The notes under the pieces: generated by a model
The model's input: the letters and a program-made list of their open reading frames with translations, nothing else
Told to the model about the DNA's origin: nothing
The model's database searches: none
Origin: a virus
Length of the DNA: 61,141 nt
Direction: 5' to 3' (one strand)
IMG/VR virus record: IMGVR_UViG_3300037963_003681
Span: 1-61,141 of that record
Position numbers and translations under genes: made by a program
Part shown: positions 12,141 to 52,631 of the stretch, in pieces
How the letters are laid out: each line of letters starts with the position of its first letter
Position numbering within the stretch: the first letter of the stretch is position 1

Positions 12141-15100
12141 TTAATAACCGCCACCATAACCACCACCTCCACCACCTCCACCTCCATCAGCAGATTGGTA
12201 AATGGTAATAGTTTGAGTGTCGGTCACAGTAGATGATGCGGAAACGGAAGAAGCTTGTACTGTTACGATTACAGTCTGATCAGTGTCGGTATCTAAGTCT
12301 GTTGTTGTAAGTGTTGTAGTAGAACCGCTTGAACTTGATAATGCTGTGCCAGCTACAGAATTTATACTCCAAGCATAAACTACATCACTAGCAGTACCAA
12401 CATAACTAGCACTTAATGCAACATTCGATCCACCATTTACAGTAGTATTAGAGCTTATAGTAACTGATGTAAGTGTTGGTGTGCTAGAATCAGAGCTTTG
12501 TACAACAGTAATGGTCTTTGTTGTACTTACGCTAGTTCCAGCAGAAGCAGACGTTCCTGTTAAAGTTACGGTAACGGTTTGATCTGTATCTGTATCTAAA
12601 TCAGTAGTATTAAGAGTTGTAGATGATCCTGTAGCACTGGAAAGCGTTACACCTGTAGCAGAGCTAACGCTCCATGAATATGTGACATCTGTAGCGGTAC
12701 CTGCTTTAGAGGCCGTAAGGGTTAAACCAGAACCGCCTGTGACCGTAGATAAAGATAAAATATTTACATGAGTTAATGTAGGAGTTGGAGAGGTGCAAGA
12801 ATTATCGTATATTAAGTTATCTTGACCTCCCATATAGCCATGATAGTAACATTCATAAGAGGTAGTACTAAAGTCTCCACTAAAGATACCTGTCACACTA
12901 CCATAATAGAAAGTATAAGTATTACCATCTAAAGCCGCCTTGCTACCAACGGATGTAGTACCTGAGTATGCTATAGGTTTACTATTATTGTGGAAAGCTA
13001 TAGGATGATTAGATGGGACGTTGTTCAATACATAAGTTCCTGTATTAGCCTTAAATCTGTAAGAACTACTAGAATTACCATCAAAGACATATTTGTTACC
13101 ATCTCCTGTATTGGCTACAGTAACATCTATACTTCCATCTAAACATACGTCTGTTTTAGCAGGAGTAAGGGAATCGCAATCGTAGTTACCATGATAATGT
13201 TGCGACAATCCGTTAGGCATCCAATATACTACACTTAATACTGTGTGCTGGTGTGATGTTCCGTTGCCGTTTGGATCCCTATTAGAATCATATTCTGATG
13301 AATACAATGGATAATATCCATTAACGCAAACAGGCGATTCTGAATGATCGAGAAGGAATGATGTAGTTGCAGTCAATGTGTTGAAAGCACTATCAGATTT
13401 CACAGTTAAAGATATGTTGACATTCTCATCATTTCTTTGGGCTATGTTAGTAGTCCCTATAGGATAGAATGTGCCAGTATTTGTTCCTGATCCAGAAGCA
13501 TACGGGCTACCTATAATACTCCAAGTATATTCAAGATCAGTAGCTGTACCTACTGTGGTGCTACCCAATATCAAACCAGAGCCAGCTAGTAGCGAAGAAA
13601 CACCTGAGGTTATATTCAAACTAGTAAATGTAGTACCCTCTAATATATTGATTGTATATGCTTTTTCAAAGAATCTATTTGTTTGATCTGTAGTTCTCAA
13701 CCTAATATTGTGTGTAGGTTTAATGCCGTGACTAAGGATAGAATTAGTACGTAATTCGTTATTGACAATAGTAAAGTTGCTGTTGTCTGTATCATTTGTT
13801 CCTGTGACCAAACTGTATGTAAATGTGTCATTGTTGTTAGAGTCGGTTGTACTTAATGTACCAAGAATAGTTCCAACTGGAGCCTTTTCACTAATCGAAG
13901 TTGTGGATAGCGTAAGATCTGTTGGTGCAGTAGGATGAACAAATGGGACTCCATTAGGCATGTAGTATAATTGAGCGTTAATAGTATGTGTATGATACGT
14001 GCCATCTCCACCATTTAATAAACCGTAAGTACTAGCTGAATTAGCATCTAAGAAGACAGGGAAGTATCCATCAACAGTTAATGGTACTAACGATGGTGTT
14101 ATATCTTGACTGACCTTTTGTTGCTTAGAAAATGGACCCATGATATATGGATATTCAGGAACAACTAAACCACTACTAGTAAAAGTTAAATAGTACGCAT
14201 AGGTACCTTTCGGATATTCAGGTGTAACAGAATATCTACCATTGTATTGGTCTAATAAACCAGAGCCTTCAGCGTATTCGTAATCTTGAATAAATGCACC
14301 TGCAGTTAAATTATATGCAACATCATTAACAGAAATAGCATTTGTATACTTCCAATCTGCGGGTCTGTGTTCATCAGTAGGTTTGGTAATATATGAACTA
14401 GTCATTAAAGTACATGGCGATGAAGTATTTTCAGAATTTTCGTATCCAAAAGGACCATATATAGGATATCCATCAAAACTAAAACCTATAATTTTAGAAT
14501 GACCATTTGAATGTCTAAAGTAATCTCCATTAAAGTTACTACCGCTGTAATAAGGATTACTATTATAGACCTTGCTATCATCCCAACATCTTGTTAGAAA
14601 CTTACCATTATAGTACGCATATTTACTATCTTGATTTACATAACCTCCACAATCATCCATTTTGAAAAATGAACTGAAATGAGTCCTATTATATGTAAAG
14701 CCTGAAGGTGCAGCATAAACTCCTACTGCCTCCCCTGAAGCTCCGGGATTAGAAAATAATACTCCATTATTAAAGACGCCATTAAAACCTGTGTTAGCTG
14801 CTTCTGGAGATGATGTATTTGTAGCTCCTCTATATTGTAATTTAAAATTATATTCTTGATCTGCTATGGTATAATCATTAAAAAATGCACCTCTAGATGT
14901 AGAGCCATCATTAATTAAAGAAGAACCAGCTTTGGCTGGATAAGGATCTCCATCACTAGTAATAATTAAATTAGTTCCAGAAAAATATATGCTAGTTGTA
15001 CTATCATATGCTCCATCTATATTAGATATTTCTAGTCCGTCAGCAGTAAACCACACTTCATCAGGTAGAGCTATTCTTTTCCAGCTATTAAAATCAACGC

Positions 15101-16496
15101 ATAAATACACATAGTTTTCATCATAATAAACATCTCCAGCCCTGCCTCGTGTAGATGGACTATGTAAAGTTCCTGTAGTAAAAGGAGAAAATACTTTATC
15201 TAAACTAAATGTAAGAGATTTAAAACTATTGTTATATTCAAGTGTTATACCTCCAGTGCCAATAATATTTATTTTTTCATTATTACTTAGATTACAACTA
15301 ACTTGAGGTGTATCAGCATTAACAGGTGAATTACCAATGATCAGATTAACTGCTGATGGAGCAGGAAAATCTATAGAATCATTATCTACTTTCACATAAC
15401 CTAAATTATTCCACCTTGTGGTATTATCACCTATTTTTAATAATCTAGTATCTGTTTCATAGGCAGCTTCTCCTATAGCTAAAATAGGATTAATTCCTGT
15501 CCAATTAGCAGCAGTATCTCTTCTAATCCTAATACGTGTATAGTTAGCATGATTGAAGTCTAGAGGAGTAACAAATATTGGCTTTTCTGGAATGACTATA
15601 TTACTATCATCAGAAAATGGTCCAGTTCCCGCTCCATTGGTTGCTGCCACCCTAAAATAATATTGGTTATCATTTACCAAATTATTAACAATAGTGCTAG
15701 TACCAGTAATCGCTGTGCTAAATTGCGTCCATCCAGTATTAGCAGTATTGTCGTAGTATTCTACTGTGTACTTAGTAACGTCGTGTCCACCATTATCTAT
15801 TGGTGGTTGCCATGTTAATGTAGCGTAGGCATCTGCACCACTAGCTACAGGCAATAATGGCTTAGACGGAGGAACAGCATAATATGATATTACTGCTGAA
15901 TCAAAAGACATCGCCCTAAGTGTTTGTGTCCTTGTTGGTGCTTTAAATACTAAATAGAAATAATCGTTTGAACTATAGACTTCAGAAAAAACTAAACCAC
16001 TAACCGGCTCTGTTAAATCTAATTGTGTTCTAAAGTCTGGGTCACCTAAGAAATTTTTTGAAGTAGTACCTCCAAAATCATATACTGGAGTCTCAAAGAA
16101 TTGTGTTTCTATAAAATGTCCCTGACTAAAAGAAGGTACAAAATTAAAATTAGTACCAACTATGCCGCTAACATCTTGATTATAGCCAGAAATATTTTCA
16201 AATGAAATATTAAGATTAAAAGAACGTAGACTATCCTTAGGAATACCGGGTTGAAATTCTAGTACAGTCGCATAATCTCCAACTGTTTTTTGGGTAATAC
16301 CATGCTCAATTCCAGTGCCAGCATAATATCCAATCCAAGAAGGTAAAAAAGCACCTCCAGAAAGTGGACTACCTATGTCTGCGATTGGGGTTCCGTCACC
16401 AGCCTGCAATTCCGTAACATTGACTTCATAAATGTGAAAAGCATCAACACCATCTACAGGATAGTTTTGAAGAGTTTTAGATAGTATTATACTCAT
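12141..16496 (-). CDS. Large modular fibre: Fn3, Mtd-N-like, YHYH, cadherin-like and cupredoxin-like domains
   Basis: 1451 residues. In order: a unique N-terminal part (1-205); fibronectin III (~212-305, PSKPLLPV..YTVEYYDN..YYFRVAATNGAGTG); a domain like the N-terminus of major tropism determinants (~318-375, TRIRIRRDTAANW and LLKIGDNTTRW); a WKRIALP chip-like segment; a YHYH domain (~560-790, core FDGYPIYGPFGYEN); a His motif HTHTINAQLYYMPNG (~840); a cadherin-like repeat; a second His motif HQHTVLSVVYWMPNG (~1090); a cupredoxin-like segment (~1130-1240) with HPIAFH and CYYHGYMGG; two tandem Ig-like repeats each with TTDLDTDTDQTV; and a Gly/Tyr tail GGGGGGGGGGYGGGY. Probable receptor-binding or glycan-binding tail protein. 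Start overlaps the stop of the 878-residue gene (ATGA). Confidence 0.85.
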   Translation of the reverse strand: MSIILSKTLQNYPVDGVDAFHIYEVNVTELQAGDGTPIADIGSPLSGGAFLPSWIGYYAGTGIEHGITQKTVGDYATVLEFQPGIPKDSLRSFNLNISFENISGYNQDVSGIVGTNFNFVPSFSQGHFIETQFFETPVYDFGGTTSKNFLGDPDFRTQLDLTEPVSGLVFSEVYSSNDYFYLVFKAPTRTQTLRAMSFDSAVISYYAVPPSKPLLPVASGADAYATLTWQPPIDNGGHDVTKYTVEYYDNTANTGWTQFSTAITGTSTIVNNLVNDNQYYFRVAATNGAGTGPFSDDSNIVIPEKPIFVTPLDFNHANYTRIRIRRDTAANWTGINPILAIGEAAYETDTRLLKIGDNTTRWNNLGYVKVDNDSIDFPAPSAVNLIIGNSPVNADTPQVSCNLSNNEKINIIGTGGITLEYNNSFKSLTFSLDKVFSPFTTGTLHSPSTRGRAGDVYYDENYVYLCVDFNSWKRIALPDEVWFTADGLEISNIDGAYDSTTSIYFSGTNLIITSDGDPYPAKAGSSLINDGSTSRGAFFNDYTIADQEYNFKLQYRGATNTSSPEAANTGFNGVFNNGVLFSNPGASGEAVGVYAAPSGFTYNRTHFSSFFKMDDCGGYVNQDSKYAYYNGKFLTRCWDDSKVYNSNPYYSGSNFNGDYFRHSNGHSKIIGFSFDGYPIYGPFGYENSENTSSPCTLMTSSYITKPTDEHRPADWKYTNAISVNDVAYNLTAGAFIQDYEYAEGSGLLDQYNGRYSVTPEYPKGTYAYYLTFTSSGLVVPEYPYIMGPFSKQQKVSQDITPSLVPLTVDGYFPVFLDANSASTYGLLNGGDGTYHTHTINAQLYYMPNGVPFVHPTAPTDLTLSTTSISEKAPVGTILGTLSTTDSNNNDTFTYSLVTGTNDTDNSNFTIVNNELRTNSILSHGIKPTHNIRLRTTDQTNRFFEKAYTINILEGTTFTSLNITSGVSSLLAGSGLILGSTTVGTATDLEYTWSIIGSPYASGSGTNTGTFYPIGTTNIAQRNDENVNISLTVKSDSAFNTLTATTSFLLDHSESPVCVNGYYPLYSSEYDSNRDPNGNGTSHQHTVLSVVYWMPNGLSQHYHGNYDCDSLTPAKTDVCLDGSIDVTVANTGDGNKYVFDGNSSSSYRFKANTGTYVLNNVPSNHPIAFHNNSKPIAYSGTTSVGSKAALDGNTYTFYYGSVTGIFSGDFSTTSYECYYHGYMGGQDNLIYDNSCTSPTPTLTHVNILSLSTVTGGSGLTLTASKAGTATDVTYSWSVSSATGVTLSSATGSSTTLNTTDLDTDTDQTVTVTLTGTSASAGTSVSTTKTITVVQSSDSSTPTLTSVTISSNTTVNGGSNVALSASYVGTASDVVYAWSINSVAGTALSSSSGSTTTLTTTDLDTDTDQTVIVTVQASSVSASSTVTDTQTITIYQSADGGGGGGGGGYGGGY

Positions 16497-22018: not shown

Positions 22019-25000
22019 TTAATAAACATAAGTGTAGTTATCTGTACCTGTTTCATCTGAAACCTGAATTTTAACAGTGTTATGTACTGACCAATCAATA
22101 CCATAATCAGAGCTTAAAGTTAATTTAACATCTAACATATCAGTGGTATTATTATATTGATCCTCAATAATACTACCTGTGCCAACTGTGTGTCTTAGGA
22201 ATCCACAGTAATCAAAATCGCCACCAATACCAGCCGCAATTTGAATATCTGGACTATGATTGTATAATGGCCTCTTACCACCAGAAATACTAAAGGTCAA
22301 ATCATCTCCAACTTTATTGACTGTTCCTGTGACAATAGCTATAGGCTTATTAACGTGTAGTACATGATTTGTAAAGAACTTTTTAGGTGATAAACCAACA
22401 TGTGGATATGAGACAGTATCAAATACTGGGGTATCAATATTATCCATTGTTGCAATCTTGTAGATTAAATCTTCATTTTCTCTAGTATTAGATCTACCTG
22501 TAATCTGGAATGTGTATTTACCCTCAGTATTGTATACAGTATTGTATGGCATAATTTTAATATTGTCATCAATGTTTTCGTAAACTTTAACGTAATCATT
22601 CTTATTAAATCCTTCTAGCCATCCAGTACCAGCAGCAGTATTTCCTAGATAAACTAAGTTTCCATCACCAGATGCTACAGAAACATAACCGTTGTGTTCT
22701 AGTAAATTTAAATCTGTAGATGTAAATCTGTCCTTATCCACACCTATGCTATCTCCAACAGTATAAGTAAAGTTACCACTGACCAGTAATTCATTGTTGG
22801 TTAAATCTACATCTTGAATTATAGAACGGAAATCTACTGTAGATTTGCCATTAGAAATATTAGAACCACCCAAATTAGTAACAATAGACAGATAGTCACC
22901 ATCAATATTATTAGCTGCTACTGTAATTGTATCACTGTATTGTAACTCTGGATTACCAAATGCGGGATTGGTATAGAATTCAACTTTAATCATATCTCCA
23001 ACACTAGGATTGACACCAGAAATTTTTAAGGTAGTATCACTATAAGTATAATCTGATCTAAGGCCAGTAGTAGTAGGTTTGAGTAAGTCTTTCTGGATAA
23101 TACCTGATATCTTAGGCAAAAATGTTTCCATGCTATATAAACCAGAAACAACACCATTACCAGAGTGAGAGTAAGGAATAGCTTCCCCAATTCCAGCACT
23201 TGTTGGAACATATCCCCCAACAGCTATACCTATTAATGGAGTCATAACAACACCATTAGGATCACCATCTGTTAAGCTGTTAATCACAGATACGCTATCA
23301 AAGCCGACAATATTTAAAGGAGGAAAAGTATTTTGTGTAGGCACAGTAGTAAGATTATCACCCTTATGTATCCATACGTAATCATTAGATGATTCTGGGG
23401 TTGCTAATGGATCGTAGGTTGGAAAGACATCAGAATCTTTAGATATAGTTAATTTATATACAGTACCTGATTCTCTAGATAGAGTTCTAGTATCAAAACT
23501 ACTACCAGCACCAACTGTGCCATTTTGTATAGAAACACCGGACATCATATCGATAATGTCGTAGCCAAGACTTGCACTTCTACTATTGCCTTGTATTAAT
23601 CTTTGAGATTCTGTATCTCCATATGCAAGTCTAGTAGCTAAAGCAAATCTAATACCGTTGAATGAGAAGAAATAATCTTGAGCTGGTGGGGGGTCGACTA
23701 CCTCTGCATGTATTTCTGGCACAGCGATACCAGAAATATATAATACTCCTGTTTGGTGACAATCAGACCATGATACGCTAGATGTAATATCTACATCTGA
23801 ATTAACTCTATCTATTCTCAAATCGCTGAATGAATCAAATGCCTGTAATCCAGTAAGAGAAGCTTTAAATGAAGGAAGCATAGCACCTAATAAACCACGT
23901 TTGGTATTGCCTCCACCAGCTGGTTGGTCTTTACCTTGCGTAGCTACTCCTCCACCCAATATGCAATATTGTGTACTACTAACAATATTACCCTCAAAAA
24001 ACGTATCAAAATTTGAAAGATTTAAAGATTCACTTTGACCCTTGAGTATTTGAGCATTTCCAGTAATAGGTGCAACCTGACTTGGATTTTGTAGTGATTC
24101 TGATCCAGTAATATGGATTCCCGTATCATCACTAAACAGTTTGTAGCTTCCGTCATTACCATTGTTATGTGAATCAAATGCGATATATATTTCATCACCA
24201 CTAGAAATTTGTTGGTTGGTTTGTAGATTTTCTCCTGATTGAATAATATAAATTCTTAAATCATTTGTTACCGCAGTTCCAGAAAATAGTATTTCACTAA
24301 CACCACATTTATTATGAGGCAAAACACTTCTACATGTTAATGCTTCTACAATAGTTGGAGGTCTGCCAACATCTTGACTTCTGTCTTTAATTAAAGCTAA
24401 CCCAGATTTTGGTGACACAGCAATATTTTCATCTTTAAAGTAAACCGTCATCCCAATATCAGGATCATTTGGTACTGAAGCATCTGTAAATGTAATAGTT
24501 TGAGTTGCTGTTTTATCTCTAGCATCAGTTACAGTTAACGTTAGTTTTTCTGCATATGCTCCTCCACTGGCAAAAGTTGTTGGATAACCTTCAACCTTTA
24601 GATAGCCATGACCCATATTAGAGTAAGGAGCAACCGGTGTATTGGCATTTTCTGGAAAATACTGACTATAACTCAATCCTGGTGGCACAGAACCCGAAAC
24701 AGAATAGCTCTTAATACCTGTTACATTAGTGCATAATGCTTCGCCTCCCGGTTTAAAATCTAACTGTTTTGTATAGTAAGTATTGCAGAATGGGAGCATC
24801 TTATCCATACCTACATAGTTATCATTGATAGTTATTGTTGGCGGATTTCCGTCAAAAGATCCTTCAATATAGTTAAATGCAAATGGAACTTGGTCAGTGT
24901 TAGGTAAATACGGCGATTCTGGTAATAGGCTTGTATCAGTATCTATGGCTGTAATTGTAAAGTCTTTTCTACCTAATAAAACGCAACTAGGTAGACCAGA

Positions 25001-28000
25001 GAAGTGATAGCTCCAAGAACCACCTTGATCTCCAGGATTCCATGTAGGAGCTTTAACCAGGCACTGTAATTGTGTTTCTATAAGAGGATTATAACCAGTA
25101 CAGAACGTAGGCATATCTGTAAGAATAATAGTAGGAGGATAATTAGCATGTGCTAAACCTCCAATAGTTTTAAACTGTAACTCCCATGAATCGTCACCTT
25201 GATCGACATTAATTGCACCACCGGGAGTATATCCAAGTATGCCAGTTATTTTAAGTGGTATACCATCAAGTTCGTTGCTCTCGATTTCCATAGTGCTTAA
25301 TTTAGCAACAGCTATAATTTTATCTTTACCTATACCCTTGCAGTCTACAGTTATAGTATCGCCTGTCAAATTAAATCTAGCATCATATTTATCTGTCATC
25401 GCATCAGAAGTGTATGAGTTAGTCCAAATATTTAAATGCCTATCATATTTACGCACTGTTTTATCTGTTGGTAAAGTGATACTGTTTTCTTTTAGAGATG
25501 CTGGGAATGAAATTTGATTAGACTGATTTTCATTTAAATCAAAAATATCAGCCTTAGTAAAGAATTCATTGTCAGGAGTTGTATAAACATCAGCAGAAAT
25601 ATTTTTCATTCTAGTAAATGAATCATAAGATATAGAATAGTCATCATTTGTCGTGTTACTAGAATATTCATCATCTATGTAAATAGATATTGGATACAAT
25701 CCAGTTTCCGCTATAAATCTACCTAAAGCATCTTTATTAGCTACTGCTGCTACTTTCCATTTCTTAATACCTGTTTCGTAAGTATAGGTTAAGTTGTATT
25801 GTGGAATTTCAAAGTCATATGTTCCTAGATTTGGAGCGTTAAAGATTTTTGCATTTGGAATGTTTGATGCATCGTGTTCGCAAATACCACTAACAATATA
25901 GAATTCCATAGACCAAGGTTCATTGGTAGTGAATGGTATGGTAGTAGTTTGTGGTATACCTTCGAATACTACGTTCTTATAAAATATGGTATTAAAACCG
26001 ATATTACGACTATAGGTTTGATATGTATATCCTCCAAACTCATCATAAACAGCCTGTTTAATTGAAACGCTTACAGATTGATTAACAAATCTACCTGAAT
26101 CATCTCTATATACAGGTGAATCTCCTGTGGTTTGTGGAGTTGCGGTAATATCAAATCTTTTTGTGTTGGAATTGTAGCTAGCATTATCTAAGGATATATT
26201 ATATTCAGCATCAGTATTAAATGTAATATTTAAATTATTTGTTACTTCTGATGATGTCGGACCTAATAATGCAGGTATTGAGAACTTAACCTTATCTTGT
26301 TGATCTGTATTTAAATAATAGGTAGAAGAGAAGTTATTAAATTCAACATTATATGCTGGGCGGTCTGCTATATGATCTAAGACAGATAGCACTCCTGTAA
26401 CAACACCAAGAGTAGTGTAAGGTGTTGTAGTCAAATCTTTAACTGTTAATTGTAGATTGTAGATACCTGTATTTGCACCCCTAGTATCGCCAGAGAATAC
26501 AACAGATGTAGCATCTGCATAAGCTCTAGCGTAATTACTGGAATCGGGCATATTAGCTAACTCTAAAAACAATTCATTACTCGTAAGTTTTGTATTAACA
26601 TCTAATTTAGTAATATCAAAACCAACTTCCCACATATTACCACTGGCTACATATCCTGTGGGATAGAAGCTAGTAATATTTGGAATCTTGTATTTAGAAA
26701 TCGAGATAGTTTGGTCAGCATCACCAGTAAGATCTGATGTTCTAACAATAATATCTTTATTAGTATAATCTTCTTTTGGTGGATTCCATTTTAATCCTAT
26801 GTTCCAGCCACTACCGTGCCAACCAAAACTTGCTGGTTCATTAAATTCTAATTGGTAAATACCAATACCGGACAATGAAACTTTAGGAATAGAATGCCTT
26901 GGTTTGTCGAATAAACTCAAATCTCCATTTGTAGTGGTTACTTTAAACATCACTTGATTTACATTGTCAGGTATGCTCAAACTATTATTACTTATATCAG
27001 CAAAATCATCGCTATCATTAAATCTATACTGAATACCACTAATATTAATTGGGCTAGGTAATATAGAGTACAAAGTGCTTTCTGTTTCACTTGGTCCACC
27101 TAACTTAATAGTATGTCCTGTTGGAGAAGGCTGATCTCCTTGCAGGTGTATTGTATGCTTCCATCTTTTACTGTCATTATCAAAATAATTTAAAATTTTC
27201 TTCGATGTAGACGATAATCCGTCTATATTACCTTCAGATAAAGTAAATGCATTATCTACATTAGGATTAAGATGACTTTTAATGTTTTGGGTACTATCAA
27301 TAATATATACTAACCCAGATTTATTAATCATGTCAGCATCAAATGCAGGGCTTATCGTTAAAGCATTTGGAGATATGACATCTTTAATTGGATATGATTG
27401 TGTTAAGCTGGGTGCTTCATCATCAAAATCAAAGAACATAGTCTTACCAGCAGCAACATTAGTAAATGGTGCTGTACTAATGCCAGATACAGTTACGCAT
27501 AAAGTACCTGACATACAAGTATCTGTATCAAATACTACACTATAGGTTCCTGTCTGGGCAGCAGCTACGGATGCTCCTGTATTATCAAGAGGATAGTGAG
27601 AAGTTGTGCCTCCATAAGTGTGATAATAAAGATTGTTATAATCTAACACATTAAAGAAACCAGACGTAGACTTAGTAAATTCTACAATACCTTTGTTTGG
27701 TAGTGCTTGATCATGAGCAACACCTAAAGGTGTTTTGTGTCTAAATGAATTTTCATAAACTAGATCCCAAGCTACATCACCAGGTCTAGGAGGAATAGTT
27801 CTGTCTCCTTCTATAACTATACCACTTACTATGTTTGATTCACTAGTTGCATTAAATTTACTAAGATGTTTAGACACACCACTATCGGCTATATTAACAC
27901 TATTAAATTTATCTATAATAAATTCATCCTCTTCAAGTAAGAATGACTTAATAGTATTAAATTGAGACATTTTGATGATATTACCATTAAAGAAAACTTG

Positions 28001-31000
28001 TTTATTTTTCTGATCTGAACCACAATATGTATTGTTGGTTTTAATATATGGTAACACATGATAATCTTGAGCTAATAACGATCTGTAATTAGGATCTAGT
28101 GCAGGAATGTATTGAGGTAATTTGGTATCGCAATCAACACAATCATTAGCATCAAGTGTTGGTACAGGAGTGTATACTAGTTCAGCTTCAGCAGGATTAA
28201 TATAAGGAAAATAATCTACTGTGGTATTTAGTGTTTGAGCATTTTCTAAAATATATGGTTTAATTGTTACACTATCTAATGTCTTAGCTGTTAGTAGTAG
28301 ATCGTTTTTGAAATGACTTTTCTTGCTTTTGCCAACAAAAACTTTGATCTTATCAAACCTATTAACATTAAGTGTTAGATCTAACTCACCCGTTAATCCG
28401 ACATCTAAAGAACCAGTTTTAAATACTTCTGTCTGAGCTATAGGTGTAGCACGATTTATAAGTGCTCTATATCTCTCTGTCTGCTGTTCAAAAGTAGTAT
28501 GATATACAATTAATCCTGTGTTTTGTATACCGGATATATGGTATGTCCCTTCTAATTTAATCCTGTTACTATTTTGACCAAGGTATATAAATTCTAAATA
28601 TCCAGAATTATTTGTAGTAGTTTGAATATGATGATAATAAGGATCACTAGAATGGCCAACACCACTAATTCCTGTAGCTACATTTAGGTTTGGATCACTA
28701 GAGTCTGTGCAATAATACTCTGAATATCCGATATCGTTAATTGTAGCTTGTCTAACAATTCTAGATCCTTCATACAAAGCATCAGATCCAGTAGCGAATA
28801 TAGAAGCGTGACCTATATGATTAGAGTCAAGTTTAGCCGCGATATTAGCAGAGATCACGTTGTGGTTTTTAGGTATGACACCACTAAAAATAAAGCCATC
28901 AACTAATGAATCAATCTCATATCCATACTTATCGCTATTGCTATGATTAAGCATGAGTCCCGTTTGTAATCTGTTTATTAAACTATTATCAATAGTACAA
29001 GTGCCAGCGGCATCTTTACCCTTACTCATAATACCTGTAAATATAATATCTTCTGATGAAAGTGTGGTTTCCAATGTCGCTGAAGTTTCTAACAACATAT
29101 TATCTTTATCTGGCTCTAAGTCTCTTAGTCCAGTTTTACGACCAATCATAGTATCATCAATTAAAACATTTATAGGATCTGAAGAGTACGCAAAACCTGT
29201 TGGAAAACTGACTTTAACATTATCGAATGGCTGTATAACTCCAGACTTTATTACAAAAGAAAATAATTTACTACTATGATCGTACTCAAAATTAATTTTA
29301 TCGTATATATGATTAAGATATGTTTTATTATATCTGATATCATAAATATTTTGGTGATTATTAAATAAAGAGCCGCTAAATGTTATACCATTGGTTAAAT
29401 AAGAACCCTTAATAGATTTTTCATAGTAATCAGGACGACTTGTTTCTTTCAATAGATAATTCTTATAGTCTTGAACCATCACACGATTACCTGTAACAGA
29501 CACTACGTCAAATGTATAGTCTTTAGGTCTACGATTAGCAGTAGAATCAATCACTGATGTATTGGTGTGATGCCATTTTTTACGAACGTCAACAAATTCT
29601 ACAGGTACTCTATTAATAATTGTAAACGCTTCTTCTTTATAGCCATGTCCCTTATCAACATTACCAGTGAAAGTACCTCGTCTGTTAATAGATCCATTAG
29701 CTTGAATACCACTATTTGGCATAAAGTAATTGTTTTCAATTTGAATAGTGTCTTCATCTACAATTTTAATACCTGTATATTGTGCTGCTACTGGTAAATC
29801 TAACGAGCCGATAGATGATGCAAAATTATAAGCATATACATTATTTTGTTTTCTACTATCTAAATTAATATCTTTATTAAAATTCAATGTAACAACACCG
29901 GTACCAGCCTGAGTATATACATCCACTAAACCTGTAACATAATGACCAGTACTAGCGTAGTCCGATTCAAATCCTTTAAATCCAGATACATAAGAAACTA
30001 TATTACATCCAGTTACTTGTGGATAAGCATGCTGTTTTAATCCGCTAATTGGATAATTATTATCTTCTGCTGCGTTTTCTTGATACACAATCTTTCTAGA
30101 CGCAGTACTACCTGCATATGGTTCACTGAACTTTACAAAATGTTTATTGCTACTAAAAGCAAATTGTATAAGCTTTCCCCAATTATAATAGTAATTAAAT
30201 ACATTATCTGATTGATCCACAGCAGCTTCATAAATAAGTTTAATATCACCCTGAACAGAGCCCGGTAGCACTAAACACGCATCACCAGATCTAGCAGCTA
30301 TAGCGTAGTCATGCACTATGGGATCATTATTTTCCGCAATAAAATTATCAAACTTATCAACCATTAAATTACCATTGTCTTTTACAACTCTATAACTATC
30401 AAATAGTTCATAAGCACTATTCGCTATTTCTATTCTTGTTCCGTGATCTTTTGGATCGCTTGAAATAATTCTATTACTGTTTTCTGCATTAATCATATGA
30501 TTGTCTTCAGTAAGAAAACGACAGAAATCTCCAGAACCAATACCATACAAGGCTAATACTGGATTTTCTACAGCGTCACGGAAAGCAAAAGTATCAGTAT
30601 CATATTTAATATTTGACCGTTTTAGATCACCAGTAGGAGGAGGATTAAAATTTTGTAGATTGGTTGTATTATCTACAGTGGTAGGGTCACCTGTTCTGTC
30701 TGTATAAGATACTGTAGCATTTTCAATTAAATCTCTGTCACTACAATTAGGATATCCTGATGCCCAAATAATATTAGTATTAAATGCATCTGCTATTTGG
30801 AATCTTTGCAAACCTGTTTCTGGTGGTGTGCTAAATTGACCGCTGGCTTCTGAAGTAATACCACTAACCGCACCTAGTACACTAGATTCCGTAGACATAA
30901 ACAATGGTTCAAAACCATGATGAGTAACAATGTGATGACCGTCTTGTTCAGTTAGTAGTTCTTCTGCAAAATCAGTACTTAATTCAGTTTTGAGAGTAGT

Positions 31001-34000
31001 TCTAACTTCGTCTATTGTTACAGAATAGTCGTTATATCCATTAACGGTAAACTGTCTTGGTAATGATACACTACCGGAAGCCTTAATAGTTTGTCCAGCA
31101 AAAAATGTATTATCATTATCTCTATAACTATCTACAAAATAAATACGTCCATCACTTAATCCTGGGGTACCAGACATACTAAAAGGAGCATATCTATTTG
31201 TAACAGTATAATCTGTACCATAGCCTATAATGTCAACTAAAGAAGGAAGACTTAAATAACTAGACGAACCTGTAATAGAAGATGTAGCAAAATCTTGTAC
31301 AATATTGAAACACTCTACAAAATCAGCACCATTTACTAAATTACCTGAAAAAGAATTGGAAGCAGTTTCAAACTCAAGATAAGGATTATAAGAGCCAACA
31401 CAATCAAGTGTACTGATTAAAGAACCAGATGGAAGATTTTCATCTATACTAGTACTAGATAAAACAATGTCCGTAATGTCATCATTATTGCCATCAAAGT
31501 ATTCAAAAACTTGATATTCATTGTCGGTAACTGTTAAAAAGAAATCAGCGTGAATCTTGCTATGGTTATTTTCTGCGTAAACTCTAATGTTATATGTGCC
31601 TATTTTACAACCACCGGGAGAACCACTAAATGTTCGTGTAGCGGGAGTAAAGGTTATCCATGCTGGCAAGGGATGTCCATTCTGTAATGAAGCAGAAAAA
31701 GTCAGAGACCCTTCATCGTCTTCTTCGTTGAATATATTCGCAGGAAACGTATAGTCAAGAGTTTCTGTAATATCAACAGTGTGATTTGGAATATTTATGT
31801 GACTATAAGGAGACTTTTTATCATTAACAGTGATAGTGAAATTTTTCTCAAAAGTTTTACCCGCTATATAATTTGATGCTTTAAGTCTAATATTATAAAT
31901 ATTTTTAACTTCATAGTCTAATGGGTTTATAGCTACTAAATGGAATCTATCGTTATCATTTAATATTTCAAATGAGCTGTTGTCATCATCTAAATATCCA
32001 TCAGTTAATTCGTATTTTACAGGTTGGTACGATATATCTAAAGGAGTATCTACCCCAGTAGTATATATAGTTAATTGATCATTTCCTGGATGATTTTTAA
32101 ATCTCGTATAAAAGCATCTGTGTTTATTAAATATAGTTTTATCTGATTCAAAATTACCATCTATTACTTGTTTATGTGATAAAAATACTGAACCAGAATT
32201 TGATACTAATGGCAAAGTATGTACAAACCTACCAGAAGGATAGCTGCCTCTTTTGGGAATGTTTATACCAGAAATTAGAATTGTAGTATTATCACCTCTA
32301 TATCCAGTATAATTATGATGAATTTCAAAAGTACTATAAAATTGTTCACCGTCTTGAGTAGTATCAGCAAAAATTTTGTGAGCATTAGTAAATATGCCAC
32401 TAGAATAATTTGCTCCATTTACCCCATCTAATACAGAGATGCTACGATCATCAACAACTATGTCAGCATAATCAACAAGCTCTCCTGATCGATAATTAAT
32501 GATACCTGTATAATAAGGTCTTTCTGCATAAAAAGTATCTTTACCTATCACAGAGTAAACATTATAACCTTTGTCTGCTACAGGTTGTCCTGTTACATTA
32601 GTAAATCTTAAATCTATTTTGGAACCTACTGTTAAACCGTGATTGTCAGATACAATTTCAATACCTCTGTTGGTCGTATGCATTCTAAAATTACCAGAAT
32701 ATACTGGCGTATCAATATCTAAAACTAAATCGCCTCTGTTAGTTTTATAATATGATCCTGTAACTTGTTTTAATTCTTTGGTATATATGTAATAATCTTC
32801 TCGATTTTGTACAGACAATGCGTTGCTTTGTATAGGAGGATGTGTTACTTTAACATCTTGTTGCTGTCTATCTCCATTAGTATGACTAAATGTATGGTAA
32901 TGATTTTTAATTTGAGAATTATTGAACAGTTCTCTTTTCTTGGCTTGTTGTGGATGAGTTGTTAGATTGACTATTTGTGTAAAATTATTTGAATCTCTAT
33001 AAGTAGCATTTTTAAATATACCACTCATGAACTCATACTGAGCCACACCGGTGCCAAAAGCTTTGGTAATTAATAATTCTAAATTATATGCAAAGGTTTT
33101 ATTATTTGGTATAGTTATACTTGGAGTTAAAGTTCTCCATGTATTACCAGCTTCAACACCCTGAAGATGCATTGTAATTTGACTATGTTGAGCATGTTCT
33201 AACCTAGCTAATGATGTTGGATCATTGTGATTAAAAGCACCAAATGATAATTGGTTAGGAACATAAGCATAGCCATGATCTCCTATGGCTACTGAATTGT
33301 TTGTATTAACTTTTGAATTACTATTAAGGGCTATGGAATTATTACCAGTTACCGCATTATTTGTTCCTACTACTAAATTATTATTACCATCAATTATATT
33401 TGATTGTCCTATAGAAACAGATGATGTAGCAGAAGAAACTGTTCCTGATCCAACCACCAAACTTTGATTGTCATCTAGTATGATATCTCCAGCAGGATTT
33501 TGATATACAACAGAGCTATCTATTCTACCAGCTGGATCGTTTACTCCATCATTAAATTTTGGTAGATATGTATTGGTACCTTGAATATGATCAAATGTAA
33601 CATTATTATATGAAAATGCACCAGTAATATTAGCGGCATTTCTATAGTAAGAACCGTGTTGGCTATCTAGTAAATCAGTATTTAAATTAGTAACTAATCT
33701 AGTATTGCTACTTACATCAAATGGTGGATCTGTATTAGCATTAGGATCATCTACACGAATTTGTTTTCTAAAAGTAATATTAGACGTAAAAACCTTTTGG
33801 CCTTCTATTTCTTCATCACCCTTTAATTTAACATAAAGACCATCAGCTATATTTCTTAATAATATGGTTGAACTATCACCATCTAAGTTAGATACTACAT
33901 ATACAGAATTAGCATCACCACCATTAAGATCGTCTTCATCTCCATTTCCTGTATCCGCACCTGAAGCAAATACATTTGTGACAAGTTTTAGCTCATCATT

Positions 34001-35335
34001 AGCAGGATAGTATGCTAAAATACCAGTTTTATTTGAGTAAAGACCACCATAGATAAAACTCACACCTCTTGGTTGATCAGGTAGTATATTAGAATTATTG
34101 GTGGCTAATACAGGTAGATTGTCATAAATACTAGTTTCACCATTTAGATAAACATCTCCAGCTAACGTAGTAGTACCGTCTATGGTTTTTGTGCCAGTAT
34201 CAGGCACAGGAGTGTAACCTAGAGAAGATATAATATCAGCTTGATCAGCGTATAATACTGATGACACTAAGCCATTAGAATCAACACCTATTTTTGTATA
34301 AGTACCTGGAGCTACGGCAGACGGTAACACATTTGTATTGAGTATACCCGTTAAATTAATGGCATCTCTAAAATAATCTTGGTGATGACCGTCCAATAAG
34401 TCTGCGTCTAAATTAGATCCAGGCCCATCATTTCCTGGATGAAGTGGTATATATCCTAAAATGTCTATGACATCATTGTAAGTAAGGGTTGTGCCACTAA
34501 CTACTCTGCCTTTATCGTCTGTAACAATTTTAGAATAAGTTCCAGGAGTACCTGTTGTACTCAGTTTGATAAGATCATCTTCTACAATAATATCGGCTGA
34601 AGAAGGTATATTGATCGCAACAGTACCGTTGGGTACTTCTAAGCCTCCTCCTCCAACCAAACCAGATCCTGCTACAATATTAACAGATATGCCACTGAGT
34701 AAAAAATTGCCTGTGTTAATAGGAAAAGATTTAATTTTAGTACCATCAAAATACACAAGTCGATTTTGAGTATAAAAATTGTTGTTCGTACCACCTTTAC
34801 TAATTGGTACTTGACCTTGAATAGTACCTAGATCTAATTCACTAGTTCTTGCTATTGTTCCGTCTACTACTATTTCATTACTGGAACCAATAGTTAAGCC
34901 TTCACCTAGTAAGGTATCTAATGTGACAGTATTATTTGAATCTATCTTTCGTAAACCTGAACCAGCCAAAACACCTGTTACACTATTGCTGGTTCCTGCT
35001 GTATCTAAAATATCTTGAACACTATACGAAGACGATGATAATTTATCTCCATCAAAAAAGATAATATTACCACTAGAATATGTGGTATTGTTTGTCCCTC
35101 CACTACTTAAAGGTAATACATCAAAAGTTGGAGCATCCTGACCAGCTGGGCCTTGAGCACCTGTCTCACCTTTATCCCCTTGAGGTCCTTGTTCTATACT
35201 TACAACTTTAATCGTATTGCTACGATCATCAGAGATAAGTACACGCGTAGTCTGTATAGATTGAGTCTCGTCTACTCTAGATACTAGTAAGTATTGATTT
35301 TTATTAAAGTCTTCGTTAACAGTTATTTGCGTCAT
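22019..35335 (-). CDS. Giant 4438-residue modular fibre/adhesin
   Basis: A single open frame of 13.3 kb. Features by approximate residue: short collagen-like stalk (48-68, GPQGDKGETGAQGPAGQ); two phage-fibre GGTN repeats (~80 and ~178, ISKGGTNN..YTQNRLVYFDG); two LLDGHHQDYFRDA / LLDSQHGSYYRNA repeats (~305, ~550); a YadA-head-like run (~620-700, NNLVVGTNNAVTGNNSIAL and NSVAIGD); a beta domain with IPNNKTFAYNLELLI; cadherin/dystroglycan-like repeats (~1090-1330, with PLPAWITFTPATRTFSG); then >2500 residues of repeated Ig/cadherin-like beta modules, including another PPGL..LKVEGYPTT unit near 3640. No protease, lyase or membrane span was recognised. It probably forms a very long trimeric fibre or tail-tip adhesin. 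Start ATG shares one base with the stop of the upstream 142-residue gene. Confidence 0.85.
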   Translation of the reverse strand: MTQITVNEDFNKNQYLLVSRVDETQSIQTTRVLISDDRSNTIKVVSIEQGPQGDKGETGAQGPAGQDAPTFDVLPLSSGGTNNTTYSSGNIIFFDGDKLSSSSYSVQDILDTAGTSNSVTGVLAGSGLRKIDSNNTVTLDTLLGEGLTIGSSNEIVVDGTIARTSELDLGTIQGQVPISKGGTNNNFYTQNRLVYFDGTKIKSFPINTGNFLLSGISVNIVAGSGLVGGGGLEVPNGTVAINIPSSADIIVEDDLIKLSTTGTPGTYSKIVTDDKGRVVSGTTLTYNDVIDILGYIPLHPGNDGPGSNLDADLLDGHHQDYFRDAINLTGILNTNVLPSAVAPGTYTKIGVDSNGLVSSVLYADQADIISSLGYTPVPDTGTKTIDGTTTLAGDVYLNGETSIYDNLPVLATNNSNILPDQPRGVSFIYGGLYSNKTGILAYYPANDELKLVTNVFASGADTGNGDEDDLNGGDANSVYVVSNLDGDSSTILLRNIADGLYVKLKGDEEIEGQKVFTSNITFRKQIRVDDPNANTDPPFDVSSNTRLVTNLNTDLLDSQHGSYYRNAANITGAFSYNNVTFDHIQGTNTYLPKFNDGVNDPAGRIDSSVVYQNPAGDIILDDNQSLVVGSGTVSSATSSVSIGQSNIIDGNNNLVVGTNNAVTGNNSIALNSNSKVNTNNSVAIGDHGYAYVPNQLSFGAFNHNDPTSLARLEHAQHSQITMHLQGVEAGNTWRTLTPSITIPNNKTFAYNLELLITKAFGTGVAQYEFMSGIFKNATYRDSNNFTQIVNLTTHPQQAKKRELFNNSQIKNHYHTFSHTNGDRQQQDVKVTHPPIQSNALSVQNREDYYIYTKELKQVTGSYYKTNRGDLVLDIDTPVYSGNFRMHTTNRGIEIVSDNHGLTVGSKIDLRFTNVTGQPVADKGYNVYSVIGKDTFYAERPYYTGIINYRSGELVDYADIVVDDRSISVLDGVNGANYSSGIFTNAHKIFADTTQDGEQFYSTFEIHHNYTGYRGDNTTILISGINIPKRGSYPSGRFVHTLPLVSNSGSVFLSHKQVIDGNFESDKTIFNKHRCFYTRFKNHPGNDQLTIYTTGVDTPLDISYQPVKYELTDGYLDDDNSSFEILNDNDRFHLVAINPLDYEVKNIYNIRLKASNYIAGKTFEKNFTITVNDKKSPYSHINIPNHTVDITETLDYTFPANIFNEEDDEGSLTFSASLQNGHPLPAWITFTPATRTFSGSPGGCKIGTYNIRVYAENNHSKIHADFFLTVTDNEYQVFEYFDGNNDDITDIVLSSTSIDENLPSGSLISTLDCVGSYNPYLEFETASNSFSGNLVNGADFVECFNIVQDFATSSITGSSSYLSLPSLVDIIGYGTDYTVTNRYAPFSMSGTPGLSDGRIYFVDSYRDNDNTFFAGQTIKASGSVSLPRQFTVNGYNDYSVTIDEVRTTLKTELSTDFAEELLTEQDGHHIVTHHGFEPLFMSTESSVLGAVSGITSEASGQFSTPPETGLQRFQIADAFNTNIIWASGYPNCSDRDLIENATVSYTDRTGDPTTVDNTTNLQNFNPPPTGDLKRSNIKYDTDTFAFRDAVENPVLALYGIGSGDFCRFLTEDNHMINAENSNRIISSDPKDHGTRIEIANSAYELFDSYRVVKDNGNLMVDKFDNFIAENNDPIVHDYAIAARSGDACLVLPGSVQGDIKLIYEAAVDQSDNVFNYYYNWGKLIQFAFSSNKHFVKFSEPYAGSTASRKIVYQENAAEDNNYPISGLKQHAYPQVTGCNIVSYVSGFKGFESDYASTGHYVTGLVDVYTQAGTGVVTLNFNKDINLDSRKQNNVYAYNFASSIGSLDLPVAAQYTGIKIVDEDTIQIENNYFMPNSGIQANGSINRRGTFTGNVDKGHGYKEEAFTIINRVPVEFVDVRKKWHHTNTSVIDSTANRRPKDYTFDVVSVTGNRVMVQDYKNYLLKETSRPDYYEKSIKGSYLTNGITFSGSLFNNHQNIYDIRYNKTYLNHIYDKINFEYDHSSKLFSFVIKSGVIQPFDNVKVSFPTGFAYSSDPINVLIDDTMIGRKTGLRDLEPDKDNMLLETSATLETTLSSEDIIFTGIMSKGKDAAGTCTIDNSLINRLQTGLMLNHSNSDKYGYEIDSLVDGFIFSGVIPKNHNVISANIAAKLDSNHIGHASIFATGSDALYEGSRIVRQATINDIGYSEYYCTDSSDPNLNVATGISGVGHSSDPYYHHIQTTTNNSGYLEFIYLGQNSNRIKLEGTYHISGIQNTGLIVYHTTFEQQTERYRALINRATPIAQTEVFKTGSLDVGLTGELDLTLNVNRFDKIKVFVGKSKKSHFKNDLLLTAKTLDSVTIKPYILENAQTLNTTVDYFPYINPAEAELVYTPVPTLDANDCVDCDTKLPQYIPALDPNYRSLLAQDYHVLPYIKTNNTYCGSDQKNKQVFFNGNIIKMSQFNTIKSFLLEEDEFIIDKFNSVNIADSGVSKHLSKFNATSESNIVSGIVIEGDRTIPPRPGDVAWDLVYENSFRHKTPLGVAHDQALPNKGIVEFTKSTSGFFNVLDYNNLYYHTYGGTTSHYPLDNTGASVAAAQTGTYSVVFDTDTCMSGTLCVTVSGISTAPFTNVAAGKTMFFDFDDEAPSLTQSYPIKDVISPNALTISPAFDADMINKSGLVYIIDSTQNIKSHLNPNVDNAFTLSEGNIDGLSSTSKKILNYFDNDSKRWKHTIHLQGDQPSPTGHTIKLGGPSETESTLYSILPSPINISGIQYRFNDSDDFADISNNSLSIPDNVNQVMFKVTTTNGDLSLFDKPRHSIPKVSLSGIGIYQLEFNEPASFGWHGSGWNIGLKWNPPKEDYTNKDIIVRTSDLTGDADQTISISKYKIPNITSFYPTGYVASGNMWEVGFDITKLDVNTKLTSNELFLELANMPDSSNYARAYADATSVVFSGDTRGANTGIYNLQLTVKDLTTTPYTTLGVVTGVLSVLDHIADRPAYNVEFNNFSSTYYLNTDQQDKVKFSIPALLGPTSSEVTNNLNITFNTDAEYNISLDNASYNSNTKRFDITATPQTTGDSPVYRDDSGRFVNQSVSVSIKQAVYDEFGGYTYQTYSRNIGFNTIFYKNVVFEGIPQTTTIPFTTNEPWSMEFYIVSGICEHDASNIPNAKIFNAPNLGTYDFEIPQYNLTYTYETGIKKWKVAAVANKDALGRFIAETGLYPISIYIDDEYSSNTTNDDYSISYDSFTRMKNISADVYTTPDNEFFTKADIFDLNENQSNQISFPASLKENSITLPTDKTVRKYDRHLNIWTNSYTSDAMTDKYDARFNLTGDTITVDCKGIGKDKIIAVAKLSTMEIESNELDGIPLKITGILGYTPGGAINVDQGDDSWELQFKTIGGLAHANYPPTIILTDMPTFCTGYNPLIETQLQCLVKAPTWNPGDQGGSWSYHFSGLPSCVLLGRKDFTITAIDTDTSLLPESPYLPNTDQVPFAFNYIEGSFDGNPPTITINDNYVGMDKMLPFCNTYYTKQLDFKPGGEALCTNVTGIKSYSVSGSVPPGLSYSQYFPENANTPVAPYSNMGHGYLKVEGYPTTFASGGAYAEKLTLTVTDARDKTATQTITFTDASVPNDPDIGMTVYFKDENIAVSPKSGLALIKDRSQDVGRPPTIVEALTCRSVLPHNKCGVSEILFSGTAVTNDLRIYIIQSGENLQTNQQISSGDEIYIAFDSHNNGNDGSYKLFSDDTGIHITGSESLQNPSQVAPITGNAQILKGQSESLNLSNFDTFFEGNIVSSTQYCILGGGVATQGKDQPAGGGNTKRGLLGAMLPSFKASLTGLQAFDSFSDLRIDRVNSDVDITSSVSWSDCHQTGVLYISGIAVPEIHAEVVDPPPAQDYFFSFNGIRFALATRLAYGDTESQRLIQGNSRSASLGYDIIDMMSGVSIQNGTVGAGSSFDTRTLSRESGTVYKLTISKDSDVFPTYDPLATPESSNDYVWIHKGDNLTTVPTQNTFPPLNIVGFDSVSVINSLTDGDPNGVVMTPLIGIAVGGYVPTSAGIGEAIPYSHSGNGVVSGLYSMETFLPKISGIIQKDLLKPTTTGLRSDYTYSDTTLKISGVNPSVGDMIKVEFYTNPAFGNPELQYSDTITVAANNIDGDYLSIVTNLGGSNISNGKSTVDFRSIIQDVDLTNNELLVSGNFTYTVGDSIGVDKDRFTSTDLNLLEHNGYVSVASGDGNLVYLGNTAAGTGWLEGFNKNDYVKVYENIDDNIKIMPYNTVYNTEGKYTFQITGRSNTRENEDLIYKIATMDNIDTPVFDTVSYPHVGLSPKKFFTNHVLHVNKPIAIVTGTVNKVGDDLTFSISGGKRPLYNHSPDIQIAAGIGGDFDYCGFLRHTVGTGSIIEDQYNNTTDMLDVKLTLSSDYGIDWSVHNTVKIQVSDETGTDNYTYVY

Positions 35336-35763
35336 TAACAGGTTCCACAGTCATCTTGAGAATCAAAATTACAATTAAAAGCATCAGTATCAGAAACGTT
35401 ACGCTCTATAGTCGAAATCGTTCCTTGTAAAATTCTAAAAACTTTTTTACCTCCACCACTATATAGGTCGTTAGGTTCTTGTAATTCTAAATCATAAGAT
35501 GCACTTGTGAAAGTATATGCAGCTGTTACAGAAGCGGGAATTTTTAAACTAATTTTACCAACTAATGGATCTATAACAAATTCATAATCTGCACCCGTAT
35601 GATTACTATTAAAGGTGTTGATTACATCATTGTTATCCTTCCATCTTAGTCTAGCACACCAATTGGTTAAATTTATTGGATTATTATTATCATCTTTATA
35701 TTCAAAAGAAATTACGAAAGCTGTACCTTTTTCTATAGTAAAGCTATAATCTGCTGCTGCCAT
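35335..35763 (-). CDS. BppU-N-like fibre adaptor, copy 2
   Basis: 142 residues, beta-rich. It is clearly paralogous to the 134-residue protein at 44025-44429: both begin with a (F/Y)-x-(F/I)-x-(I)-(E)-x-G-(T/S) strand, share NLTNWCARLRWK / DLTGWCARLTWK, then GKI-(S/N)-L, then YDLELQ near the same position, and end with a run to a Cys-rich or Cys-ending tail (here CNFDSQDDCGTC). The pattern resembles the N-terminal domain of baseplate upper proteins that anchor fibres. Both copies are placed directly upstream of a fibre module and have a one-base TAATG overlap with the next gene. Role as adaptor for the giant fibre is inferred. Confidence 0.7.
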   Translation of the reverse strand: MAAADYSFTIEKGTAFVISFEYKDDNNNPINLTNWCARLRWKDNNDVINTFNSNHTGADYEFVIDPLVGKISLKIPASVTAAYTFTSASYDLELQEPNDLYSGGGKKVFRILQGTISTIERNVSDTDAFNCNFDSQDDCGTC

Positions 35764-43734: not shown

Positions 43735-44025
43735 CTACGGAGAACCACCATCAATTATAGTATGGTAAAGATATAACGGACTACTCATTCCACTACCAGC
43801 AATACTAGCCATTCCACTGAGTGTAATAGGCATATTATTAGCTATATAAGTACTCAATCCAACTACATCAGTAGCATAACTAATAGTAGAAGAAAATCCT
43901 GTTTGGATTTCAATAGTGTTTACAACTGTACTAGTTACTTCTAGATTTTCAGTATTATCTTCTGTAGAAGTTTCAATCTCTAATGTAGTAGTTACATCTG
44001 AAATTTCTAAAGTAAAATCGCTCAT
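43735..44025 (-). CDS. Small fibre-cassette protein
   Basis: 96 residues, no recognised family. Low-complexity Thr/Ser/Glu-rich beta-type sequence in the first half (LEISDVTTTLEIETSTEDN), then a hydrophobic-polar region YIANNMPITLSGMASIAGSGM. The start codon shares a base with the stop of the BppU-like gene upstream. The N-terminal part resembles in style the first 45 residues before the collagen stalk in the 383- and 4438-residue fibres, so it may be an independent fibre-base component. Function unknown. Confidence 0.55.
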   Translation of the reverse strand: MSDFTLEISDVTTTLEIETSTEDNTENLEVTSTVVNTIEIQTGFSSTISYATDVVGLSTYIANNMPITLSGMASIAGSGMSSPLYLYHTIIDGGSP

Positions 44026-44429
44026 TAGGTATTACACTCCAAGGCTGTACTAGATTTACTATAACGTTTCTGTATAGTTACAGTACCATACAGTAGTCTA
44101 GTAACAAATTTACCACCTTGGCTGTAATGATCTTCATCGGACTGTAACTCTAGGTCATATTTAGCTGTATTAAAATCAAATCCATTAGTAGTACCAGCAG
44201 GAAATAATAAATTAATTTTACCTGAAGATCCTTCGATATTAAAATCATAAGAAGTTTTATTAGCATTATCACTATCAAAAGTTTGTGTGACATTTGCACT
44301 GGTTTTCCAAGTAAGCCTAGCACACCAACCTGTTAAATCAATGACAGTACCAGCACTGTCCTTATAAATTAAAGACATTTTGAACGATGAGCCTTGCTCA
44401 ATGTCAAAATTGTATAGACTTGCTCCCAT
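44025..44429 (-). CDS. BppU-N-like fibre adaptor, copy 1
   Basis: 134 residues, paralogue of the 142-residue protein at 35335-35763 (shared LT-WCARL-WK, GKI-L, YDLELQ and an aligned G(T)-(V/I)-(T/S)-x-I-x-(K/R) strand). The N-terminus LYNFDIEQGSSFKMSLIYKD resembles the N-terminal beta domain of baseplate upper proteins. First gene after the major capsid terminator and first gene of fibre cassette 1. The stop overlaps the next start by one base, exactly as in copy 2. Probable anchor between virion and fibre; whether on tail or head cannot be told from sequence. Confidence 0.7.
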   Translation of the reverse strand: MGASLYNFDIEQGSSFKMSLIYKDSAGTVIDLTGWCARLTWKTSANVTQTFDSDNANKTSYDFNIEGSSGKINLLFPAGTTNGFDFNTAKYDLELQSDEDHYSQGGKFVTRLLYGTVTIQKRYSKSSTALECNT

Positions 44430-52378: not shown

Positions 52379-52631
52379 TGGCTAATATCTTTAAAAAAGT
52401 GGATGCGTATAATTCTTCCTGACCTTTAATTAAATTGTGGTGATATCTGCAAAGCGTAATTCCGTTAGCCACCTCAAATCTCAACCCAGGATAATGTGCC
52501 CAGGTTTTAATATGATGAGCATTCAACTTTTTCTTAATTTTACAATTTGGCCATCTGCAACAATAGTGATCTCTTCTATATACAGCTTGTCGCCATTTTT
52601 TATATTGAGGATCACCATAGTTTCTAAACAT
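52362..52631 (-). CDS. HNH endonuclease (packaging-associated)
   Basis: 89 residues. HNH signature: His39-His40 in LNAHHIKTW, Asn56 in EVANGITLC, His64/His65 in RYHHNLI; Cys25, Cys30 and Cys61 could bind zinc. Small HNH nucleases next to terminase are known to cooperate with the large subunit in cos-type phages such as HK97. Here an ERCC4 nuclease gene separates them. Start overlaps the stop of gmd by eight bases. It is also possible that it is a free-standing homing endonuclease, though the lack of extra DNA-binding modules speaks against it. Confidence 0.88.
   Translation of the reverse strand: MFRNYGDPQYKKWRQAVYRRDHYCCRWPNCKIKKKLNAHHIKTWAHYPGLRFEVANGITLCRYHHNLIKGQEELYASTFLKILANDRLQ

Follow-up and report, generated by a model that had tools for sequence, protein, structure and literature searches.

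A predicted cupredoxin-fold module with a candidate type 1-like copper site in a modular virion protein of an uncultured phage

A histidine followed by a Cys-x2-His-x2-Met loop in a 1451-residue phage protein raises the question of whether a virion protein may carry the copper site of a cupredoxin. The protein is encoded in the virus record IMGVR_UViG_3300037963_003681, from an uncultured phage, and the whole stretch of 61,141 bases that was analyzed is referred to here as the window. The coding sequence occupies positions 12141..16496 on the minus strand, as do all features of this protein given below, and its product is a modular virion protein (a probable tail fibre or adhesin). Pfam matches were found to a fibronectin type III (fn3) domain at residues 222-299 (positions 15600..15833; PF00041, E 5.9e-11), an Mtd_N domain at residues 322-357 (15426..15533; PF18454, E 8.3e-11), a YHYH domain at residues 552-773 (14178..14843; PF14240, E 2e-26) and, weakly, to cadherin, while NCBIfam gave no match anywhere in the protein. 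For the YHYH domain, a function as a zinc-dependent hydrolase has been predicted (PMC7824862). PHROGs matches were to tail and virion families, all of them outside the cupredoxin-like domain, and tail matches were also obtained for the neighbouring genes, which are of tail-fibre, LamG and collagen-like types; portal and terminase genes are present in the same window. Two Ig-like repeats, recognized by reading the sequence and having no library match, probably span residues 1237-1432 (12201..12788) after the cupredoxin-like domain; together with a Gly-rich tail they form approximately 200 residues C-terminal to the domain, which is not at the protein end. The label of a fibre that had been given to this protein is in line with its context (Mtd_N, fn3 and YHYH domains, collagen-like and LamG neighbours), and the protein is probably a tail fibre.

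Several other features of the window were recorded. The 1451-residue protein contains two His-rich modules with the pattern GDGT-x-HxH...Y(Y/W)MPNG, at positions 13176-13328 (residues 1057-1107) and 13938-14012 (residues 829-853), whose HxH is similar to the motif that binds iron in T4-type fibres. The former is framed by Cys1057 and Cys1107 and lies directly before the cupredoxin-like domain. An open reading frame of 4438 residues at 22019-35335 gave one Ig-like match and weak tail-fibre matches only and is mostly uncharacterised. PHROG 1084 is represented by two genes, at 35335-35763 and 44025-44429, which flank a gene for a 2339-residue fibre; that at 35335-35763 is related to L-shaped tail fibre assembly. 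A nucleotide-sugar epimerase gene (PHROG 540, E 1.6e-77) lies at 52624-53595 near the terminase gene.

The cupredoxin-like domain was assigned to residues 1113-1236 (positions 12789..13160). An earlier note, made from the sequence alone, had pointed to HPIAFH followed approximately 55 residues later by CYYHGYMGG, in the ligand order of type 1 copper proteins. Both motifs are where that note had placed them, at residues 1164-1169 (12990-13007) and 1216-1224 (12825-12851), respectively; the distance from the first His to the Cys is 52 residues. The candidate ligands are His1164 (13005..13007), Cys1216 (12849..12851), His1219 (12840..12842) and Met1222 (12831..12833), an order that fits the type 1 pattern His...Cys-x(2-4)-His-x(2-4)-Met, and the Cys-x2-His-x2-Met spacing is that of the amicyanin-type loop. 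Cys1118 (13143..13145), near the domain start, and Cys1234 (12795..12797), at the domain end, are probable disulfide partners. In the numbering of the domain, H1164, C1216, H1219, M1222, C1118 and C1234 are H58, C110, H113, M116, C12 and C128, respectively. H1169, the second His of HPIAFH, was rejected as a ligand for lack of conservation (the position varies among H, L, Q and Y); therefore, only the first His is a candidate.

Relatives were collected from IMG/VR, where a single-sequence query gave 54 loci and an alignment query gave 193 confirmed stretches, of which 80 were kept. The resulting alignment, A1, contains 43 sequences, the others being 36-86% identical to the window copy. Residues H58, P59, C110, G114, Y115, M116, G117, G118 and C128 are invariant in A1, and C12 and H113 are nearly so. 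The type 1 ligand set proposed earlier is retained in this alignment, with H1164, C1216, H1219 and M1222 found in 43, 43, 42 and 43 of the 43 sequences, respectively; the Cys equivalent to Cys1118 is absent from copies derived from metagenome-assembled genomes (MAGs). Since C-x(2-5)-H-x(2-5)-M occurs only once in all stop-to-stop frames of at least 120 residues on both strands of the window, and since the ligands are conserved in the 43-sequence alignment, the motif is not a chance occurrence.

No Pfam, NCBIfam or PHROGs model covers the window domain (1107-1236). The curated cut-offs of PF00127 (Copper-bind) and PF13473 (Cupredoxin_1) were reached neither by the window domain nor by any of the 43 relatives; because of this it was not filed in either family, and it stands outside PF00127. 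No cupredoxin was retrieved from PDB sequences when the window domain was searched with phmmer and hmmsearch, and tblastn of the domain against isolate phages gave nothing significant. With the relative L040 as query, tblastn gave only weak partial matches to Escherichia phage nucleotide kinases (best E 3e-3), which were taken as chance.

The module is found together with YHYH in the closest relative and N-terminal to a PHROG 38031 region in another, a region type that recurs in other phages, Cellulophaga phages among them, in structural proteins of far smaller size. Because its protein contexts differ in this way, the module looks mobile. It is also encoded on five MAG contigs. In two of these, L056 and L059, both labelled Euryarchaeota, the module protein has an archaeal pilin N-terminal domain and Ig-like repeats, and the L056 protein has a PF00127 domain at 967-1046 besides the module. 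In two MAG proteins (L059:4247-4918 and L060:1-7404), a second loop-bearing segment was seen within the module span (HPFRV...CAVHSAM and HPFYI...CTAHSNM, respectively), as if one cupredoxin had been inserted into another. Separately, a 2453-residue protein of a virus contig (L038:2388-9746) was seen to combine two cupredoxin-like modules with a cyclophilin-type peptidyl-prolyl isomerase (PF00160, E 3.7e-29).

The cupredoxin fold, which the earlier note had put forward for checking by structure prediction and Foldseek, was borne out by both. AlphaFold2 run on alignment A1 gave a model with a mean pLDDT of 94.2 and a pTM of 0.85; it has ten strands and no helix over approximately 120 residues, which agrees with the beta-rich unit of approximately 110 residues described before. 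In the model, strand 108-110 terminates at C110, and the loop preceding strand 122-124 contains H113 and M116, so that the last three ligands occupy the positions usual for type 1 sites, with the Cys closing the penultimate strand and the His and Met in the loop that leads to the final one. The best 50 Foldseek matches in the PDB were cupredoxin-fold proteins without exception. They include multicopper oxidases, reductases of nitrite and nitrous oxide, amicyanin, pseudoazurin (in one case carrying an engineered amicyanin loop), SufI and factor VIII, a protein with A domains of the cupredoxin fold. The individual scores were modest (E 1.6e-3 to 5.7e-2; query TM 0.31-0.46), and the agreement of the matches on one fold appears more telling than these scores. 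By strand count, pLDDT and PDB matches, the model fits the Greek-key beta-sandwich of cupredoxins (about 100-130 residues), and the reading of residues 1113-1236 as a cupredoxin fold is well supported by the modelling. Among predicted viral structures, the best matches were R4TIA3 (TM 0.83), an Aureococcus anophagefferens virus protein, the cyanophage S-TIM5 protein H6WFV3 and a mimivirid YHYH protein.

The S-TIM5 relative was first found by this predicted-structure match only and was then confirmed with the A1 profile (E 1.3e-6). Its module lies in AEZ65678.1, annotated as "virion structural protein and packaging", and reads NHPIRF...YYYCVNHSLMGG. A search of 50,697 phage records for the cyanophage family to which it belongs gave matches in 261, mostly records of Synechococcus and Prochlorococcus phages with some of Pelagibacter and Methylophilales phages; in 123 of these 261, a single site covers 80% or more of the query. 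The family was also matched in 267 IMG/VR stretches. The genes holding the module are annotated as tail fibre, baseplate wedge, gp9 connector, structural or hypothetical protein. The module is unnamed in Pfam, and its type is absent from Pfam, PHROGs and NCBIfam. The model of the cyanophage module (pLDDT 95.1) mainly matched multicopper oxidases, rusticyanin, AcoP, nitrite reductase and amicyanin, with a query TM of up to 0.59 for rusticyanin; a few semaphorin, antibody and aspartic-peptidase matches were found lower in the list. By sequence, the family profile gave no cupredoxin match among PDB sequences. Two sub-threshold matches were seen, one of the S-RIM14 gp9 module to amicyanin (E 0.26) with the ligands aligned, the other of an S-BM3 protein to PF00127 (E 0.058) over one of its modules.

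Profile-profile comparison with hhalign gave a match of A1 to the cyanophage family with a probability of 95.3% (E 2.3e-8, score 52.0, 102 columns), compared to a maximum of 20.2 for 60 column-shuffled controls and 13.8 for the reversed profile. The cyanophage family in turn matched a set of 31 cupredoxins, taken from PF00127 matches, mostly archaeal and chosen for a Cys-His-Met loop, with a probability of 87.9% (E 3.2e-6, score 37.5; shuffled maximum 17.3, reversed 15.5). The four ligand positions superpose in both links. In contrast, A1 compared directly to the 31 cupredoxins scored at background (16.4). Seven other parts of the 1451-residue protein scored 8-18 against all three profiles, and chance or composition as the source of the matches was rejected, since shuffles, reversals and the other beta-domains of the protein were at background. 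As both links hold and the direct match is at background, profile comparison ties the window domain to true cupredoxins through one intermediate and not directly. The earlier proposal of a cupredoxin-like copper site is partly supported: fold, ligand conservation, joint ligand loss (see below) and the profile chain speak for it, whereas the bound copper and the roles suggested for it, stabilisation of the tip or binding of copper-related host surface parts, are putative.

These findings indicate that residues 1113-1236 are a cupredoxin-fold bead with an intact type 1-like ligand set that would serve as a metal-pinned spacer or adhesive unit of a modular virion protein, a reading to which we assign a probability of roughly 0.6. 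Fold, ligand set, conservation and modular spread in virion proteins are supported by computation; metal binding at the candidate site H1164/C1216/H1219/M1222 is likely, and a type 1-like copper or other soft-metal site is the best reading. Cupredoxins are electron carriers. Electron transfer is unlikely here because no redox partner was seen with the domain, and a stabilising or adhesive role is more likely. The apo-domain would fold in the host cytoplasm, and one copper ion, Cu(I) or Cu(II), would be taken up after lysis or at the cell envelope. The metal and the probable Cys1118-Cys1234 disulfide would then pin the loops at one end of the beta-sandwich, giving a rigid, protease-resistant spacer or adhesive surface to a protein exposed to seawater and host proteases.

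Another metal, such as zinc, could occupy a structural site in the cupredoxin-like fold, so that a blue copper centre never forms. A set of one Cys, two His and one Met would also suit other soft metals, phages assemble in a cytoplasm that offers little free copper, and the neighbouring YHYH domain is itself predicted to bind zinc (PMC7824862). However, a Met as the fourth ligand and a Cys-x2-His-x2-Met loop of the amicyanin type are typical of copper sites and the fold matches are copper proteins, and we regard this explanation as unlikely, if the strongest of the alternatives.

Divergent copies bear on whether the conserved residues still hold a metal at all. Of 94 distinct domain copies, two that are cut before the loop and one misaligned across two modules were set aside, and six of the remaining copies deviate from the full His-Cys-His-Met set. 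All four ligands are lost in four copies, which form two apparently orthologous pairs (L040 and L043); L062 keeps the first His alone, and one L043 copy has lost the second His as its sole missing ligand. In the cyanophage family, Cys, His and Met are gone together in S-E7, S-RIM2 and S-BM1, where the first His is kept; ACG-2014d has the same YHYH neighbour and keeps all four ligands. Strictly all-or-none loss was rejected, given the first His kept in L062 and the S-RIM2-type copies and the single loss in L043. The joint losses represent about four independent events, too few for a statistic, and suggest that these residues serve one shared ligand. Since ligand-free copies persist in the same proteins (L040, L043), the fold seems to be tolerated without the site, and such ligand-less modules also persist in S-RIM2, S-E7 and S-BM1. 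This would suit a bead that no longer holds metal and whose conserved residues are kept for packing, like the adjoining fn3 and Ig beads. Packing alone, however, is insufficient to account for a Cys, a His and a Met that occur together in nearly all copies and are lost together in the exceptions, and this explanation is accordingly less probable still.

Fibre copper might instead act as bait for, or contact with, copper-handling parts of the host surface. Such a role would be the copper version of the iron "Trojan horse": in T4 and marine phages, the iron bound at HxH sites of the fibres has been suggested to make contact with siderophore receptors (PMC11705849), and the modules are located in fibre and baseplate proteins. 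By contrast, no link to a host, a receptor or copper uptake was found, and the module occurs in proteins of very different position, including the baseplate wedge and gp9-type connectors, where receptor contact is not required. On this analogy we place very little weight.

YHYH and a cupredoxin-like module share one polypeptide in the window protein, ACG-2014d gp74, S-RIM2-type phages and S-BM3. An obligate link between the two was rejected, as YHYH was found in one of ten related virus contigs with the module, the closest relative alone. A copper-dependent redox or hydrolytic enzyme formed by both, which would act at the host surface and use the cupredoxin as its relay, is the least credible explanation despite the shared polypeptides, because of that single co-occurrence and because YHYH persists in S-RIM2, S-E7 and S-BM1 beside modules without ligands. 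In ACG-2014d gp74 (L247:8761-12225) and three further loci (L260, L261 and L262), the module is apparently inserted inside the YHYH domain; in L247 the YHYH profile matches two stretches, of which one follows the module, and this suggests insertion. The S-BM3 protein (L248:1246-9192, 2648 residues) was seen to combine a pair of cupredoxin-like modules with a subtilase domain and a region resembling YHYH.

In abundant marine viruses, a predicted cupredoxin fold with its copper ligands appears to serve as an interchangeable building block of virion proteins. A related module is present in cultured phages (S-TIM5, P-SSM2, Syn1 and others), which makes copper binding by particles directly testable, and the question parallels that of iron in phage tails. 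A wider proposal, tentative and less likely than not, is that in many marine tailed phages a family of cupredoxin-like modules in fibre and baseplate proteins would load the tail with copper, that its occupancy would tune particle stability or adsorption, and that the particles would form an unrecognised reservoir of strongly bound copper in the sea.

In the open-access papers searched, no description of cupredoxin modules in phage virions was found. A close viral counterpart is the cyanophage module (S-TIM5 AEZ65678.1, P-SSM2, Syn1, gp9-type connectors), a profile homologue that by annotation is also located in virion structural proteins. It is approximately 28% identical to the window domain over the aligned part and lacks the terminal Cys pair, and its loops read HPLRF...YYYCxNHSxMGG compared to HPIAF...YECYYHGYMGG. 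Its best single-domain fold matches, rusticyanin and AcoP, are periplasmic electron-chain proteins of Acidithiobacillus and have no sequence match. With amicyanin, pseudoazurin and plastocyanin (PF00127), the window domain shares the predicted fold and the ligand order His...Cys-x2-His-x2-Met with amicyanin spacing, a spacing also found in several archaeal members of PF00127; in contrast to those three, it is longer, has a probable terminal disulfide and gives no direct profile match. The PF00127 cupredoxins are small soluble electron carriers, whereas the window domain is built into a giant virion protein. Cyanophages such as S-TIM5 also encode plastocyanin (PetE), a cupredoxin that likewise has type 1 ligands and belongs to a marine phage, but its gene is a free-standing metabolic one and the protein is not a virion module. 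The HxH iron sites of T4 gp37-type fibres (PMC11705849) provide the precedent for a metal site in a phage fibre as proposed here, and HxH motifs occur elsewhere in the 1451-residue protein, at residues 835, 1082 and 1100. The T4 gp37-type sites hold octahedral iron between HxH motifs of the fibre trimer, whereas the candidate site of the window protein contains a Cys and would lie inside one domain.
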